In this document: positions 5,063-19,210 of the stretch, piece after piece
Numbering within the stretch: position 1 is the first letter of the stretch
How the letters are laid out: each line of letters begins with the position of its first letter
Origin: an uncultured Verrucomicrobiales bacterium
Lineage (GTDB): Bacteria; Verrucomicrobiota; Verrucomicrobiia; Verrucomicrobiales; Akkermansiaceae
Length of the DNA stretch: 35,940 bases
Assembly: GCA_937944055.1 (NCBI GenBank)
Contig: CALDZJ010000075.1
Location: 1-35,940, forward strand
Direction: 5' to 3'
Made by a program: the position numbers and the translations under genes
The notes under the pieces: model-generated
Database searches by the model: none
Told to the model about the DNA's origin: nothing
Seen by the model: the letters and a program-made list of their open reading frames with translations, nothing else

Positions 5063-5145
5063 TACCTCCGGCCGGGATCGAACCGGCACGACCTAGGGTC
5101 AATGGATTTTAAATCCACAGCGTCTACCAATTCCGCCACGGAGGC
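5063..5145 (-). tRNA. tRNA-Leu (anticodon UAA)
   Basis: The minus strand folds as a class II tRNA of 83 nt. The 7-bp acceptor stem is GCCTCCG with CGGAGGT, including one G-U pair, and the discriminator is A. The D-arm contains TTGGTAGACGC, and the anticodon arm is GTGGA/TCCAT around the loop TTTAAAA, giving anticodon UAA (plus-strand 5109-5111). A long variable arm (TTGACCCTAGGTCGT) and the T-arm GCCGGTTCGATCCCGGC follow. CCA is not encoded. A T-rich run follows the 3' end. Type II structure plus UAA makes leucine unambiguous. Confidence 0.97.
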
Positions 5146-5326: not shown

Positions 5327-6472
5327 ATGTCGATGAATCCACGCGGTGCTGCCTTTCTCGGTGCCGCAGTGGCTCTGACAGTCGCAGGCTTACTTCTGAT
5401 CGATGGGGTCCTGATCTCACTGGGAGTGGCGGGCTTTCTCCTCATCATCATTATCATTATTTTTGGCCGCTGGAACCTCTCCCGGATCGAGCTACAACTC
5501 AGTGCTCCGAGCCGCGTTTTTGCGGATACCCCCTTCGACTTACATCTCACTCAGCACAATCGGCGTCAACTCTTCGACGCCTACGGAATAGAGCTCCAGC
5601 TCCGCCTCTCAAAAACTGCTGCAATCCATTCACACGCCGCTTGGACCGCGGCCCGTTCATCGTCCACAAGTAAGCTGCGCGGATCCATTTCCAGACGGGG
5701 AGCCGCTTCCCAACACCCCTGCACCCTTTCTTCATCTTTTCCGCTTGGCCTTTTCTGCTTCCGTAAGAAAACGAGCGCAGCACAAGAAATTCTCGTTTTT
5801 CCAAAGCCTCTCGTTCCGCAAGAATTCTTCGCCAATGGGGAGTTCGATGACGCTTGGAATGGCGAGGGACACCAAGCGGGAGATGCCCCGGGAGAGCCTC
5901 GTGGCCTCCGCCCCTATCGCCCCGGCGACCGAGCAAAGCAAATTCACTGGCCCTCCACGATCCGCTCTCTCACGCGGGGGCGCAGCCCACGGGTGCGCGA
6001 GTATGATCCACCCGGCCTCCGCCCACGGGAGGCCACCGTGCTCTTCCATAGTTTTGGCACGGATCACACCCTGATCCGCACGGATCTCTTTGAGCGGGCT
6101 CTCTCGCTGGTCTGCGGCACTCTGAGGCACCTGCGCGGCATCGGCGTCCCCACCAACCTGCGCGCTGATTTTCTCGCTTGGAGAGAGCAAGCAAGTTTTC
6201 ACTCGAGCGCTTGGAGCGAGACTCTCACTCTGCTGGCTCGTGCCCAAAGAGCGCACGATACTGAGGCCCACGATTTGGTCTCAGAAATTGATTCTCTCCC
6301 GGCCGAGCGAGCCTTAGTCATCATTTCCGATATGCCACCAGAGGCTTGGCGCCACATTCTCCCAGCCCGCAAGGTCCTCATCGTAGATATCCAGCAACAC
6401 CGCTACCGTAAGAGGGATCTGAGTTTCAGGCCGAAGCCTAGCTCTCCAAAAAAAACCGGCATCAGGAGCTGA
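5327..6472 (+). CDS. DUF58 domain protein (MoxR-associated type)
   Basis: This 381-residue protein opens with two hydrophobic segments (residues ~8-50, including a run of six isoleucines) that anchor it in the membrane, followed by a cytoplasmic region. The DUF58 hallmark GLRPYRPGDRAKQIHWPSTIR appears near residues 195-215, and a VWA-like strand (RALVIISDMP) lies near 325. DUF58 proteins usually sit beside a MoxR AAA+ ATPase and a transglutaminase-like membrane protein and are thought to help assemble or fold metal-dependent or envelope proteins. Neither partner is next to it here, which is unusual. The start at 5327 is preferred over TTG 5321; neither has a Shine-Dalgarno sequence. Confidence 0.85.
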   Translation: MSMNPRGAAFLGAAVALTVAGLLLIDGVLISLGVAGFLLIIIIIIFGRWNLSRIELQLSAPSRVFADTPFDLHLTQHNRRQLFDAYGIELQLRLSKTAAIHSHAAWTAARSSSTSKLRGSISRRGAASQHPCTLSSSFPLGLFCFRKKTSAAQEILVFPKPLVPQEFFANGEFDDAWNGEGHQAGDAPGEPRGLRPYRPGDRAKQIHWPSTIRSLTRGRSPRVREYDPPGLRPREATVLFHSFGTDHTLIRTDLFERALSLVCGTLRHLRGIGVPTNLRADFLAWREQASFHSSAWSETLTLLARAQRAHDTEAHDLVSEIDSLPAERALVIISDMPPEAWRHILPARKVLIVDIQQHRYRKRDLSFRPKPSSPKKTGIRS

Positions 6473-8835: not shown

Positions 8836-9183
8836 CATTAGTAAGGTCAGATTCACAAAATCCCAGAAATGAAACAAGAGGATTCCAGCCAACTGCCCTG
8901 CCAACTAGGAAGCGCAGCAAACGTTATATTTAAGTATCCTTAGGCAATTTACATTCTGCATTTTTCAGGGATCTCTCCCGTGTTTTCTTTGGACTCGTTT
9001 TCTTTGATTGCTCTCGACCTGCGGGTGAGGAAATCCAAGCTCTCAAAAGAGAAAAAAAACGAGCATTCAAGAATTTGAGTGTATCATCTGGAAAGTCTTC
9101 AAGCATTCCTGACTTCTGTGATTGTGAATCTTTTTTCTAATTTTCAACTCAGCTGCCGATCGCATTTTTTTGACCAAGCTTCC
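8836..9183. other. Divergent intergenic region
   Basis: This 348-base gap lies between two divergent starts (8835 leftward and 9184 rightward). It is less GC-rich than the genes and contains runs of T and A, for example AAAAAAAA near 9050. No Shine-Dalgarno, RNA fold or repeat stands out. It should hold both promoters, but I cannot place -35 and -10 boxes with confidence. The rightward frame stays open back to 9079, but those codons do not look like protein and would mask the signal peptide. Confidence 0.45.
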
Positions 9184-11436
9184 ATGATTCGATTATTCAT
9201 TCTTCCTTTCATCTTTAGCACCCTCCTCGCTCAAGACCCCCGCCAAGAGGTCAAAGAAGGTCACTCCCACAACGGCCACGCTTTCAATGAAGGCCCGCGC
9301 CAAGCTGGGCCGCTCATGGGAAACACCGGAGACGTTCACCTCCCCATCACCACCACTTGGGATCAAGGGCAGGCTTACTTTGACCAAGGCTTAGGCCAGC
9401 TTCACGGCTTCTGGTATTATGAAGCCGAGCGATCCTTCCGCGCCATCCTCGCGCACGATCCCCACTGCGCTATGGCCTACTGGGGACTCGCTCAGGCGAA
9501 CTACGAGAACGAGAAACGCGCCAAGGAATTTGCCAAAAAAGCCGCCGAGCTCATCGAAAAGAAGCCCGTTTCAGAACACGAGAAAGCCTACCTCGAAGCC
9601 GAGATCGCCTTCTATGATGACGAGAAGGAAAAAGATGCCACCAAGCGCCGTAAGAACTTTCTGAAAGCCTATGAAAATCTCATTCTCGATTTCCCGGACG
9701 ATATCGAGGCAAAGGCCCTCCTCGTCTGTCGCCGCTGGCAGTTCGACAGCTACCACGGCATCCCCATCACAAGTTACGTAGGAATGGATGCCATTCTCGA
9801 ACAAATCTTTGCGAAAAAACCTCATCACCCTGCCCATCATTACGCGATCCACCTCTGGGACTATCGGCGACACGAACAGGCTCTAGACTCCGCTGCCAAG
9901 CTGGGACTGACCGCGCCTCAAATCGCTCACATGTGGCACATGCCAGGGCACATTTACTCGAAGTCTCAGCGCCATCACGATGCCGCATGGGCACAGCAAG
10001 CCTCCGCCCGTATCGACCACGCCCACATGCAAAAATGGTTCCTGCTCCCTGACCAAATCCATAATTACGCTCACAATAATGAATGGCTATCTCGCAGCTT
10101 TTCTTACCTTGGTAAGATCCGCGCCAGCATCGATATGGCAAAATCCCTCTTAGCCAACCCGCGTCACCCCAAGCTAAATCACCATGCCAAAGGCTCCACC
10201 CGCGAGGGCCGTAAGGCCCTCATCAGAATTCTCGAAGAAGCCGAACTCTGGCAAGAAGCCCTAGAAACCGCCCGGTCCCCGTGGCTCGAAGAGCTCCCAA
10301 AACCCCAAGATGACCTCCCCCGCCTCCGACTCATCGCAATCGCCCACTTTAACCTCGGTCAGCAAGTTCCACTCAGAGAGAGCATCCAATCGATCGCCCA
10401 GCTCCACGAAAAAGTCCTCACAAATCAAAACGAGGCGAAGAAAAAAGCGGTCGAAAAAGCAACAGCGAAGAAAAAGACAGAAGAAGAAATCAAAGAAGCT
10501 GAAAAAAAAGCGCACGATCAATTTCAAAATCACGTCAACAAATTCGAGAACACCCTCACTGAGTTGCGGGGCTACCTCGCCGCCATGAATGGTAACTTCC
10601 AGAAAGCAAATGAAGCTCTCAAAAAACGCCCCTCGCAATTCTCGCCCATGCTCCGCCAACTCGCGTATGGCGATCACGAAAAAGCCGCAAAAACGGCCCG
10701 CAAGCTGATCGAGAAAGATGAGCAAAAATCCCTCCCTCTCGCTCAAGCAATTCACACCCTCTACCACGCCAATAAAGAGGATCACACTTGGAAGAAGGGC
10801 TTTGAAAAACTTCGCTCATTCTCCTCCGAGGTGGAAATTAGCTCCCCGATCTTCGCCCGTCTTGCTCCCATCGCCGAAGAACTCGGATACCCTCATGATT
10901 GGCGCCTAGCTCACACTCCTGCCGAGGATCTCCTCCCGCGTCCCTCGCTCGATCAACTCGGCCCACTCCACTGGACCCCACCAGCAGCTCCTGCCTTTTC
11001 CCTCCCCGACCAAAATCAAAAATCCATCTCACTTTCAGACTACCACGGCAAGCCCGTCATCGTCGTCTTTTACCTCGGTGCAGGCTGTCTGCACTGCGCC
11101 GAGCAGCTCACCGCGATGGCCGACCGCTACCATGATTTTGAAAAAGCAAAACTCCCCATCATCGCAATCTCCACCGATGAGATTCCTAAGCTGAAAGACT
11201 CCCAAGAGAATTACGCAAAAGGCACAATCCCCTTCCCCATCATCTCCGATGCTCCGAAGACGATCTTTAAAAAATACACCGCTCATGATGACTTCGAGAA
11301 TCAGCCCCTGCACGGCACCTTCGTCCTCGATGCTCAAGGCCGCATTCTCTGGTCAGACATTTCCGCTGACCCCTTCATGGAAATTGACTTCCTCATCAAA
11401 GAATCACAGCGACTTCTCGCTCTCCACAAATCATAA
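9184..11436 (+). CDS. Exported TPR protein fused to a thioredoxin-fold (AhpC/redoxin) domain
   Basis: This is a 750-residue protein whose start at 9184 gives a signal peptide (MIRLFILPFIFSTLLAQ). Residues ~60-480 are alpha-helical repeats of TPR type (for example HDPHCAMAYWGLAQANYENE), with many His residues in the first half (HSHNGH, HMWHMPGHIYSKSQRHH). A charged Lys/Glu helix at ~415-450 precedes more repeats. Residues ~600-750 form a redoxin/AhpC-TSA domain (PAFSLPDQNQKSISLSDYHGKPVIVVFYLGAG) with a CXXC-type active site, Cys635-Leu-His-Cys638. It probably acts in the periplasm as a thiol oxidoreductase linked to a protein-binding scaffold. The substrate is unknown. Similar architectures occur in Planctomycetes and Verrucomicrobia, as I recall. 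Confidence 0.85.
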   Translation: MIRLFILPFIFSTLLAQDPRQEVKEGHSHNGHAFNEGPRQAGPLMGNTGDVHLPITTTWDQGQAYFDQGLGQLHGFWYYEAERSFRAILAHDPHCAMAYWGLAQANYENEKRAKEFAKKAAELIEKKPVSEHEKAYLEAEIAFYDDEKEKDATKRRKNFLKAYENLILDFPDDIEAKALLVCRRWQFDSYHGIPITSYVGMDAILEQIFAKKPHHPAHHYAIHLWDYRRHEQALDSAAKLGLTAPQIAHMWHMPGHIYSKSQRHHDAAWAQQASARIDHAHMQKWFLLPDQIHNYAHNNEWLSRSFSYLGKIRASIDMAKSLLANPRHPKLNHHAKGSTREGRKALIRILEEAELWQEALETARSPWLEELPKPQDDLPRLRLIAIAHFNLGQQVPLRESIQSIAQLHEKVLTNQNEAKKKAVEKATAKKKTEEEIKEAEKKAHDQFQNHVNKFENTLTELRGYLAAMNGNFQKANEALKKRPSQFSPMLRQLAYGDHEKAAKTARKLIEKDEQKSLPLAQAIHTLYHANKEDHTWKKGFEKLRSFSSEVEISSPIFARLAPIAEELGYPHDWRLAHTPAEDLLPRPSLDQLGPLHWTPPAAPAFSLPDQNQKSISLSDYHGKPVIVVFYLGAGCLHCAEQLTAMADRYHDFEKAKLPIIAISTDEIPKLKDSQENYAKGTIPFPIISDAPKTIFKKYTAHDDFENQPLHGTFVLDAQGRILWSDISADPFMEIDFLIKESQRLLALHKS

Positions 11437-11529: not shown

Positions 11530-11886
11530 ATGGCAAAGGTCACCATCTATCACTTCAATCATTGAGGCTCATCTGACAATGCCTTGGCGGTCGCCAAGGA
11601 ACTCGGAGTCGATCACGAAGTCATCCTCTACATCAAAACCCCGCCCGATGCAGCCACCCTCTTCAAAATCGTGACCGCCCTCGAGGACCCGGTCCAGGAT
11701 CTCGTCCGCAAAGACGCTAAATTTAAAAAACTCGGCCTCAACCCTGATGACTTTATCGACAACCCCAATGCCGTCGTCGATATCCTCGTCAAACACAAGC
11801 AGCTTCTCCAGCGCCCCATCCTCGTAAAAGGCGAGAAAGCCATCATCGGCCGGCCGAAGGCGCGCATCGTCGACTTCCTCACCTAA
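11530..11886 (+). CDS. ArsC/Spx-type thioredoxin-fold protein, probable selenoprotein (Sec12 encoded by TGA)
   Basis: An ATG at 11530 begins MAKVTIYHFNH, then TGA at 11563-11565, then GSSDNALAVAKELG in the same frame, running to TAA 11884-11886 (118 residues with Sec). It aligns with ArsC: His8, position 12 (the catalytic Cys of E. coli ArsC) as TGA, YIKTPP near 38-43, Arg60 (VRKD), Arg95 (LLQRPILV) and Arg108 (IIGRP). These match E. coli Cys12, Arg60, Arg94 and Arg107. Arg16 of the ArsC CX3R motif is Asp here, so arsenate may not be the substrate. A perfect hairpin 16 nt after TGA supports selenocysteine. Annotation pipelines would start it at TTG 11584 and lose the active site. The alternative is a nonsense-mutated gene, but every other conserved position is intact. 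Confidence 0.8.
11582..11599 (+). promoter_or_regulatory. Candidate bacterial SECIS hairpin
   Basis: CCTTGGC (11582-11588) pairs perfectly with GCCAAGG (11593-11599) around the four-base loop GGTC. The stem starts 16 nt after the in-frame TGA and the loop begins 23 nt after it. Bacterial SECIS elements lie directly 3' of the UGA inside the coding region, have a small apical loop and carry G in the first loop positions; the E. coli fdhF loop is GGUCU. The bulged U of fdhF is absent. The stem also encodes in-frame ALAVAKE, so it is under a double constraint. Confidence 0.7.
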
Positions 11887-17020: not shown

Positions 17021-18271
17021 ATGGAACTTCAAAAGAAACTCGAAATCCTAGCCGACGCCGCCAAATACGACGCCTCCTGCGCCAGCTCCGGCGCCACGCG
17101 AAAAGACTCCACCTCCGGCAGCGGAATCGGCTCCACCGGCGGCACCGGCATCTGCCACTCCTACGCGCCCGATGGCCGCTGCATCTCCCTTCTCAAAGTC
17201 CTCCTCACCAATCGCTGCCTCTACGACTGCCACTACTGCATCAACCGCCGCTCCTCCAACGTTCAACGCGCCGCCTTCGCCCCTGCCGAAGTCGTCAAAC
17301 TCACCCTAGACTTCTACAAACGCAACTACATCGAGGGCCTCTTCCTCTCCTCCGGCATCATCCGCAATGCTGACCACACCATGGAAATGGTCATCGAAGT
17401 CGCCCGCTCCCTGCGCGAGGATCACGACTTCCGCGGCTACATCCACCTCAAAACCATCCCCGAGGCCTCCGTCGCCCTCATCGAAAAAGCCGGCCAGCTC
17501 GCCGACCGCATCTCCATCAACATCGAACTCCCCTCAGAAGAATCCCTCAAAAAATTCGCCCCAGAAAAATCCCTCAAACGCACCCGCCAAGCCATGGGAA
17601 AAATCCGCCACCGCGTCGAAAATGCCAAACAAGTCCGCCGCGAAAAATCCCCCGCTGCCAAAAAATCCTCCGAATCTAAATTCGCCACCGGCCAAAGTAC
17701 GCAAATCATCGTAGGTGCCGATGCCTCCACCGACCAAACCTTCCTCAAACGCTCCACCGACCTCTACTCCAATTTTAAGCTCAAACGCGTCTACTACTCC
17801 GCCTTCTCTCCCATCCCCCACCCCTCCGCCATCCTCCCCCTCCAAGCCCCTCCCCTCATCCGCGAGCACCGCCTCTACCAAGCCGACTGGCTCATGCGCT
17901 TCTACGGATTCCAGGCCACCGAAATCGTCTCAAATGACCTCCCAAACCTCGACCTAGATCTCGATCCCAAGCTCTCCTGGGCCCTCCGCAATCGACACCT
18001 CTTCCCCATCGATCTCAACCGCGCTGATAAACTCCTCCTCTACCGCATCCCCGGCCTCGGCATCCGCAACGCTGACCGCATCCTAAAAATCCGACGCTTC
18101 ACCGCCATTCGCATCACCGACCTCATCCGCCTCCGCGTCTCCCTCAAAAAAATCCTCCCCTTCATCATCACCCCCGACCACCACCCCAACACCCGCGAAC
18201 TCGACCACGACAACCTCCGCGCCCGCTTCGCCCCCAAACCAAAACAACTAGAACTCAAACTCACAACATAA
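17021..18271 (+). CDS. Putative DNA modification/repair radical SAM protein (TIGR03916-like)
   Basis: A 416-residue radical SAM enzyme whose 4Fe-4S motif is Cys66-LYD-Cys70-HY-Cys73. Further cysteines precede it (DASCASSG, GICHSYAPDGRC). The core barrel follows (EGLFLSSGIIRN, GYIHLKTIPEAS, DRISINIELPS), with a Lys-rich insert at ~195-220. The C-terminus has a helix-hairpin-helix DNA-binding motif (LNRADKLLLYRIPGLGIRNADRILKIR). This layout matches the family named putative DNA modification/repair radical SAM protein, which is usually paired with a DUF4130/uracil-glycosylase-like protein; exactly that pair occurs here, 24 nt apart. The reaction is not known. A LexA-like box abuts its start codon, so damage induction is likely. 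Confidence 0.88.
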   Translation: MELQKKLEILADAAKYDASCASSGATRKDSTSGSGIGSTGGTGICHSYAPDGRCISLLKVLLTNRCLYDCHYCINRRSSNVQRAAFAPAEVVKLTLDFYKRNYIEGLFLSSGIIRNADHTMEMVIEVARSLREDHDFRGYIHLKTIPEASVALIEKAGQLADRISINIELPSEESLKKFAPEKSLKRTRQAMGKIRHRVENAKQVRREKSPAAKKSSESKFATGQSTQIIVGADASTDQTFLKRSTDLYSNFKLKRVYYSAFSPIPHPSAILPLQAPPLIREHRLYQADWLMRFYGFQATEIVSNDLPNLDLDLDPKLSWALRNRHLFPIDLNRADKLLLYRIPGLGIRNADRILKIRRFTAIRITDLIRLRVSLKKILPFIITPDHHPNTRELDHDNLRARFAPKPKQLELKLTT

Positions 18272-18295: not shown

Positions 18296-19210
18296 ATGCT
18301 CACCCTAACCATCGCATCCCACTTCCCCGACTGGCGCACCAAAGCCCGCGCCCTCCTCCGCGCCCAGATCTCACCATCGGAAGTCCTCTGGCAAGCCCCC
18401 GGCCAAGCCTCCCTCTTCGATTCGCCCATCGACTCCCCCTCGCCAATTCCACCTCCAAAATGCTCCCCGCCTCAAATCCCACGCGACTTCCTCACCATCG
18501 CCCAAACCATCTCCCACCACGCCTCCCCCGACCGCTGGGCCCTCCTCTACCAAACCCTCTGGCGTCTCACCCATGGCCGCGAAAAAAACCTCCTCAAAAT
18601 CCCCTCCGATCCCACCATCGCACGCCTCCATAAAATGCGCAAAGACCTCTCCCGCGACATCCACAAAATGCACGCCTTCGTCCGCTTCAAAAAAACCGGC
18701 GAAGACCCCGCCACCGATCGCGAACAATTCATGGCATGGTTCGAACCTGATCACCACATCATGCCCCTCACCGCCCGCTTCTTCCAAAAACGTTTCACCG
18801 GCATGGACTGGACCATCTTCACCCCCACCGGCTCCGCCACCTGGGATGGCAAAAACCTCCACCTCGGCCCCGGCGTTGAAAAAGTCGAGGTCCCTGAAGA
18901 AGAACTCGATGCACTCTGGCGCGGTTACTACAAAAGCATCTTCAACCCCGCCCGTCTCAAAACCAAAGCCATGCAGGCCGAGATGCCTAAGAAATATTGG
19001 AAAAACCTCCCCGAAGCCGACCTCATCGAGTCCCTCATCGCTGAAAGCCAAAGCCGCGTCCAAGAAATGCATCAAGCTCCCCTCCAGCCCCCCACCAGCG
19101 GCGGCCAAAACCCCTACCTAAAACACCTCCACGAACTCACCTCATCTGAAGAAAAGCTCAACGAGCCCTCAGACCCCTCGGGGGGCCCCTCCGCCCAGCC
19201 TCAGCACTGA
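18296..19210 (+). CDS. TIGR03915/DUF4130 family putative DNA repair protein
   Basis: A 304-residue protein with the DUF4130 pattern: the middle carries HKMRKDLSRDIHKMHAFVRF, EQFMAWFEPDHHIMPLTARFF and RFTGMDWTIFTPTGSATWDG, and the C-terminal part has LWRGYYKSIFNPARLKTKAMQAEMPKKYW and LPEADLI. This family is found beside the radical SAM repair protein, as here. In many bacteria it is fused to a C-terminal family-4-type uracil-DNA glycosylase domain. That domain is absent: the protein ends in a Pro/Ser-rich tail soon after LIESLIAESQ. It may act with a separate glycosylase. The biochemical role is unknown; partnership with the upstream gene is inferred from context. Confidence 0.85.
   Translation: MLTLTIASHFPDWRTKARALLRAQISPSEVLWQAPGQASLFDSPIDSPSPIPPPKCSPPQIPRDFLTIAQTISHHASPDRWALLYQTLWRLTHGREKNLLKIPSDPTIARLHKMRKDLSRDIHKMHAFVRFKKTGEDPATDREQFMAWFEPDHHIMPLTARFFQKRFTGMDWTIFTPTGSATWDGKNLHLGPGVEKVEVPEEELDALWRGYYKSIFNPARLKTKAMQAEMPKKYWKNLPEADLIESLIAESQSRVQEMHQAPLQPPTSGGQNPYLKHLHELTSSEEKLNEPSDPSGGPSAQPQH

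Follow-up and report, generated by a model that had tools for sequence, protein, structure and literature searches.

An ArsC-family gene with an in-frame TGA

The window, i.e., the whole stretch of 35,940 nucleotides that was analysed, carries a gene of the ArsC family whose reading frame is interrupted by a TGA (Table 1). The initial annotation had described a frame broken solely by a TGA at codon 12, the catalytic Cys12 position of E. coli ArsC. Translation gives exactly one internal TGA, at this codon, and the alignment with E. coli ArsC agrees. With Cys placed at the TGA, the query matches Pfam ArsC with 47.4 bits (cut-off 24), and the motif at the Sec position of the window protein is UGSS (UxxS). 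The standard code gives just a 100-aa ORF in this frame, and annotation can easily miss the gene. The locus would be a clear example of a gene for a selenoprotein in which the ORF read with the standard code begins beyond the active site. TGA is an ordinary stop elsewhere, as had also been stated: it terminates the ORFs ending at 6472 and 19210, so the code of the genome is not reassigned.

Table 1. Features of the putative Sec-ArsC locus, with their coordinates in the window
Feature	Coordinates	Strand	Remarks
Sec-ArsC gene, predicted 118-aa ArsC-fold selenoprotein	11530..11886	+	ATG start, TAA stop, predicted Sec at codon 12, protein without Cys
In-frame TGA, predicted selenocysteine codon	11563..11565	+	Catalytic Cys12 position of ArsC; conserved at the aligned codon in homologues
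Putative bacterial SECIS-like hairpin	11582..11599	+	16 nt after the TGA; 7-bp stem CCTTGGC/GCCAAGG (arms 11582-11588 and 11593-11599), loop GGTC (11589-11592)
Truncated 100-aa ORF in the standard code	11584..11886	+	TTG start, without the active site; from the ORF list

A search of 58 genomes (that of the window and 57 relatives) gave matches in 28, namely the window's own genome, 24 close homologues (70-85% identity) and three distant Cys proteins (22-29%). A second match of 19 residues in one genome (L049) was omitted. All 24 close homologues among the 57 relatives have one TGA each, at the aligned codon 12. A scan of GTDB confirmed 263 relatives, of which the best 80 were kept and examined; every one of these 80 loci has the TGA at codon 12, and 79 of the 80 orthologues have no Cys. 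Such conservation at the aligned codon in both sets excludes a TGA due to chance. At column 12, homologues carry either Sec or Cys, and the Sec frames show no second stop, in keeping with the earlier view that the gene is not decaying. The titles of the 80 loci, mostly MAG labels that may be wrong, are Akkermansiaceae, Roseibacillus, other Verrucomicrobiales, Acidimicrobiales or Acidimicrobiia, 'Candidatus Microthrix' and one Pirellulaceae. Judging from the titles of the nearest loci, the host of the window would be a relative of Akkermansiaceae (Verrucomicrobiota). A scan of IMG/VR for viral relatives matched 52 stretches and confirmed none. Among plasmids, 3032 records match and none reaches 60% identity; the matches listed have 35-39% identity and are mostly annotated arsC.

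The downstream hairpin and the Sec machinery of the host

The genome of the window (2.59 Mb, 108 contigs, 92% complete) was searched for selA, selB, selC and selD, as the initial annotation had proposed. It contains SelA (E 1e-122), SelB (307 bits, cut-off 242), SelD (380 bits, cut-off 125) and a tRNA-Sec (59.2 bits, gathering score 47), called by ARAGORN as tRNA-SeC with anticodon tca (UCA). SelA was found in 24 of the 25 genomes with a Sec-ArsC gene (own included) versus 13 of the 33 relatives without one, the sole Sec-ArsC genome without a match being G001, which is 86% complete. For a further group of Sec-ArsC loci, whose titles are for the most part Acidimicrobiia or related names, SelA is present in 20 of 24 genomes. 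The SelD of the window's genome (L011:1501-2430, C45) is itself a selenoprotein candidate, with one in-frame TGA, located in the motif CGGUASK.

The perfect 7-bp hairpin with a GGUC loop that had been noticed past the TGA was found at the expected distance. Its loop presumably resembles that of E. coli fdhF. In the alignment of the window with the best 80 of the 263 GTDB loci, the loop GGTC is conserved in 81/81 rows. In these rows, the codon of Val21 is always GTC (81/81, versus 44.5% elsewhere in the same genes) and that of Ala20 always GCG (77/77, versus 30.4% elsewhere), the remaining four rows having Thr ACG. The stem was compared with 500 shuffles over 79 distinct rows: paired cells reach 97.3% (93.7% in shuffles), double-changed cells 22 (4.6 in shuffles) and the covariation score 0.203 (0.134 in shuffles), and no shuffle was as high for any of the three. 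Three stem pairs show a double change and seven further pair types occur, values that 18 and 13 of the 500 shuffles, respectively, also reached. Kinship may inflate covariation relative to shuffles; a control with the stem slid, which retains kinship, gave 0.003-0.133.

Folding of the single hairpin is mildly unusual (z -1.26 over 61 nt; 22/200 shuffles equally good). Rfam recognised no family at the hairpin and, in the window, just one tRNA. Fold energy by itself was rejected as proof of a SECIS, this z not being exceptional, and the case rests on the comparative evidence. Over 42 nt and 60 mononucleotide shuffles, the mean fold z is -1.61 for Sec rows with the GGTC type (n=95), -0.58 for those with a CGTG-type loop (n=13), -1.58 for other Sec rows (n=14) and -0.22 for Cys rows (n=51). 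GGTC was found at the loop position in none of these 51 Cys rows, 11 of which are Spx-like. Four of the 51 retain six of the seven stem pairs; they are the close row L161 (loop GGTT), whose predicted fold nevertheless differs from the hairpin, and three distant rows.

This comparison identifies the hairpin after the UGA as a predicted bacterial SECIS. The Sec machinery of the genome, the conserved TGA, the conserved GGUC loop, the covarying stem and the Cys homologues devoid of that stem and loop together designate the gene, as far as sequences can tell, as one encoding a selenoprotein in which a conserved Arg triad accompanies Sec12. The SECIS, located just past the UGA, would recruit SelB with Sec-tRNA, allowing codon 12 to be read as Sec. 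A frame with a single in-frame TGA and a standard ORF that begins downstream of it could also arise if arsC were a pseudogene in decay, if the sequence contained an error or if UGA were reassigned genome-wide. However, these explanations have a practically negligible probability given the identical TGA and the lack of a second stop in both sets of homologues, the two ORFs of the window that end with TGA and the Sec machinery. Selenocysteine insertion at codon 12 of a protein using an ArsC-type nucleophile is very probably the correct reading, an appraisal that leaves arsenate aside.

Active site, family and possible substrates

Among the 122 Sec rows, His8 is conserved in 121 and Arg60, Arg95 and Arg108 in all, as the initial annotation had proposed for the window protein; Ser15 is present in 81/81 rows of the main clade. 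The four window residues align with His8, Arg60, Arg94 and Arg107 of E. coli ArsC, in which His8 and the Arg triad act on arsenate. The window protein thus shares with this glutaredoxin-dependent enzyme (1i9d) the fold, His8, position 12, Ser15 and the three Arg positions. It differs from it by Sec instead of Cys, by an Arg16 that is not conserved, by a score below the TIGR00014 cut-off and by the lack of any ars context seen.

The Asp found at the Arg16 position had been taken to suggest a substrate other than arsenate. This argument does not hold, since Asp is one of several residues at a widely varying position: the 81 Sec orthologues (window and best 80 of 263) have K (33), T (13), D (12), Q (9), R (7), V (4) or others (3). 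Arg16 is thus present in 7/81 main-clade Sec rows, versus 25/29 Acidimicrobiia Cys rows and 9/10 Cys rows of the window's phylum.

An AlphaFold2 model with Cys at position 12 has a mean pLDDT of 87 and a pTM of 0.79. The best Foldseek match of this model is 3rdw, a 'putative arsenate reductase' (E 5e-9), and the third is E. coli ArsC 1i9d, which ranks first in the sequence comparison; Spx structures match too. The protein 3rdw, which we take to be YfgD-type, has a similar length and the GRP motif at Arg108; it has Cys rather than Sec and is 33% identical. With Cys at position 12, TIGR00014 arsC gives 86.5 bits, under its curated cut-off of 106.05. The Cys orthologues L161 and L164 also score below it (98.9 and 98.8 bits), and the plasmid ArsC L229 above it (141.9 bits).

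By analogy with E. coli ArsC, Sec12 would lie where helix 1 of the thioredoxin-like fold begins and provide the attacking selenolate; Arg60, Arg95 and Arg108 could bind the oxyanion under attack, and His8 would be close by. In a protein devoid of Cys, the regeneration of oxidised or adducted Sec would require a thiol or redoxin from outside. As to a glutathione partner, the Pfam GSH-synthetase domain, which also matches in B. subtilis, passes its cut-off in 32 of the 58 genomes, mostly weakly (61.9 bits in the window's own genome) and in one case strongly (227 bits).

The neighbours of the gene in the window encode an AhpC/TSA-domain protein, FxsA, a Zn-peptidase, a polyprenyl synthetase and one protein for which the search gave no match. 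The long protein encoded upstream (9079-11436) has its AhpC/TSA redoxin domain at the C-terminus, behind a TPR match below cut-off. Farther away, Rfam places a tRNA gene at 5063-5145 on the minus strand, and the adjacent ORFs 17021-18271 and 18296-19210 encode what we presume to be a radical-SAM pair of the DNA-repair type. In a neighbour scan of the 80 loci (best of 263), limited to four ORFs or fewer per side, with many loci ending early and clusters judged from the first 150 residues, no cluster occurs in more than 15 of the 80 loci, and no ars gene was recognised by eye in the 25 largest clusters. None was recognised by eye either around three Cys orthologues or in the regions of genomes with two Sec-ArsC copies. 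The arsenite exporter ACR3, to which the exporter comparison was confined, has no match in the window's own genome (92% complete). It was found in 11/25 Sec-ArsC genomes versus 11/33 others, one below-cut-off match being counted on each side, i.e., without association.

Two other readings accept Sec insertion. A transcription regulator of Spx/YffB type, with Sec as a redox switch, would share the ArsC-like fold superfamily, to which the match of Spx structures with the model and a TIGR01617 (Spx/MgsR) score of 40.8 bits could be related. However, this score misses the cut-off of 75.05 and is half that of TIGR00014, the motif is UxxS rather than CxxC, and Arg60 and Arg108 are kept. Such a regulator is thus very improbable. 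The initial label 'ArsC/Spx-type' stands for its ArsC part, by Ser15, Arg60 and Arg108, and falls for its Spx part, as Cys, Asn and Phe occupy these positions in the two Spx-like rows used for comparison; the predicted protein is classified as ArsC-type and not Spx-type. In the other reading, the protein is an orphan oxidoreductase of YfgD type, whose substrate would be a different oxyanion or an oxidised compound of sulfur or selenium. This is suggested by the lack of ars genes among the recurring neighbours and near the three Cys orthologues, by the absence of ACR3 from the genome and its lack of association, by the TIGR00014 score and by 3rdw as top structural match. The near-invariant His8 and Arg triad speak against it, and its chances are somewhat short of even. 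Arsenate, favoured by the intact anion site, would be the likeliest single substrate, with a chance that we put at about one half. As no arsenic genes were found alongside, the label 'arsenate reductase' of the Sec-ArsC family becomes testable.

Relation to published selenoproteins and exchange of Sec and Cys

The Sargasso Sea paper of 2005 reports an 'arsenate reductase' with 14 sequences and the motif UXXS (COG1393) among new selenoproteins (PMC1088965), and the GOS paper of 2008 reports 'ArsC 1' (pfam03960, UxxS) with 77 sequences from 23 samples and 784 Cys homologues (PMC2398784). Both agree with the mention, in the initial annotation, of Sec-containing ArsC-like proteins from marine metagenomes. 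The UxxS ArsC selenoprotein is also carried in a 2022 review (PMC9312934) and in a 2026 review, which describes the functions of such selenoproteins as largely uncharacterised (PMC13188914). By description, the window gene fits the proteins of 2005 and 2008. It belongs to the ArsC family and has the TGA at the catalytic Cys position, the UxxS motif, a downstream SECIS-like hairpin with a G in a small apical loop, homologues with Cys at column 12 and a host with Sec genes. What differs here is that a host lineage is inferred and that hairpin covariation and Sec/Cys exchange are added. The string 'Verrucomicrobi' is absent from the main text of the four papers and, among the matches listed for selenoprotein literature on Verrucomicrobi or Acidimicrobi, no title or abstract start concerns a Sec-ArsC gene there. 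The present comparison adds that Sec and Cys were exchanged repeatedly within Acidimicrobiia, that the hairpin occurs in two types and that the Sec clade has lost Arg16, points for which no priority is claimed.

The class of host G440, which is titled Acidimicrobiales, was represented by 296 genomes, of which 100 gave a match. Identity ranges from 74% (TGA) to 56-60% for the Cys forms L161, L163 and L164, which have TGC at codon 12 and no GGTC, and lower. Among 41 Sec rows of class Acidimicrobiia, 14 have the GGTC hairpin, 13 another one and 14 neither. The second SECIS-like hairpin, with a stem around GCAATGC/GCATTGC and a loop CGTGA or CGTGC, replaces the GGTC type in L156-L160, L162, L165, L167, L171, L175, L176, L178 and L189. 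The 14 rows with neither hairpin mostly have the motif UG[KQ][SA]R and are spread over more than one place on the tree, with L191/L196 and L195 apart from the others.

This tree includes 124 rows (82 Sec, 42 Cys) and 118 columns. The main clade of 81 rows is represented by 41 (the window and alternate rows of the 80) and the 11 Spx-like rows by two; L049 and L068, the latter a weak second match in one genome, were dropped. Of the 121 inner branches of the tree, 45 are open, and long branches meet. The Sec/Cys label needs seven changes on it, at least three of them by the starred branches. The Cys row L164, with Val16 as in its Sec kin and without the hairpin, lies inside a Sec clade (supports 90 and 95), beside the Sec row L167. 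This nested position suggests that L164 is likely to result from a reversion from Sec to Cys accompanied by hairpin loss. For Sec versus Arg16, there are three independent pairs by starred branches (seven over all), and b takes the same direction in 1.8 of the 3 on average; significance is impossible with such numbers.

Rows from Verrucomicrobiota are placed among those from Acidimicrobiia, with supports of 84-91 and no star, and the Cys homologues of Verrucomicrobiota are at most 39% identical (even sample, 387 genomes of the phylum). Taken together, these two observations make a transfer between the phyla likely, in either direction. A joint reading, which we regard as tentative and rather doubtful, is that Sec-ArsC is a redox family without a tie to arsenic, which Acidimicrobiia and Verrucomicrobiota would have exchanged and whose members would have switched between Sec and Cys more than once. 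The more nucleophilic selenolate could have made Arg16 dispensable, the SECIS could have been built more than once (GGUC and CGUG-loop types), and L164 would be a reversion. The occurrence of both Sec-containing and Cys-containing orthologues in the two phyla provides a natural experiment on the replacement of Cys by Sec, including gain and loss of the SECIS and relaxation at Arg16.

Four Acidimicrobiia genomes harbour a pair of Sec-ArsC genes that diverge from each other, with identities to that of the window of about 50% and 35-40% (loci L181, L182, L183, L184 and L185). No SECIS was recognised for the second copies in these genomes. In three of the genomes, 2 to 8 kb separate the paired copies; in the fourth, they lie on separate contigs.
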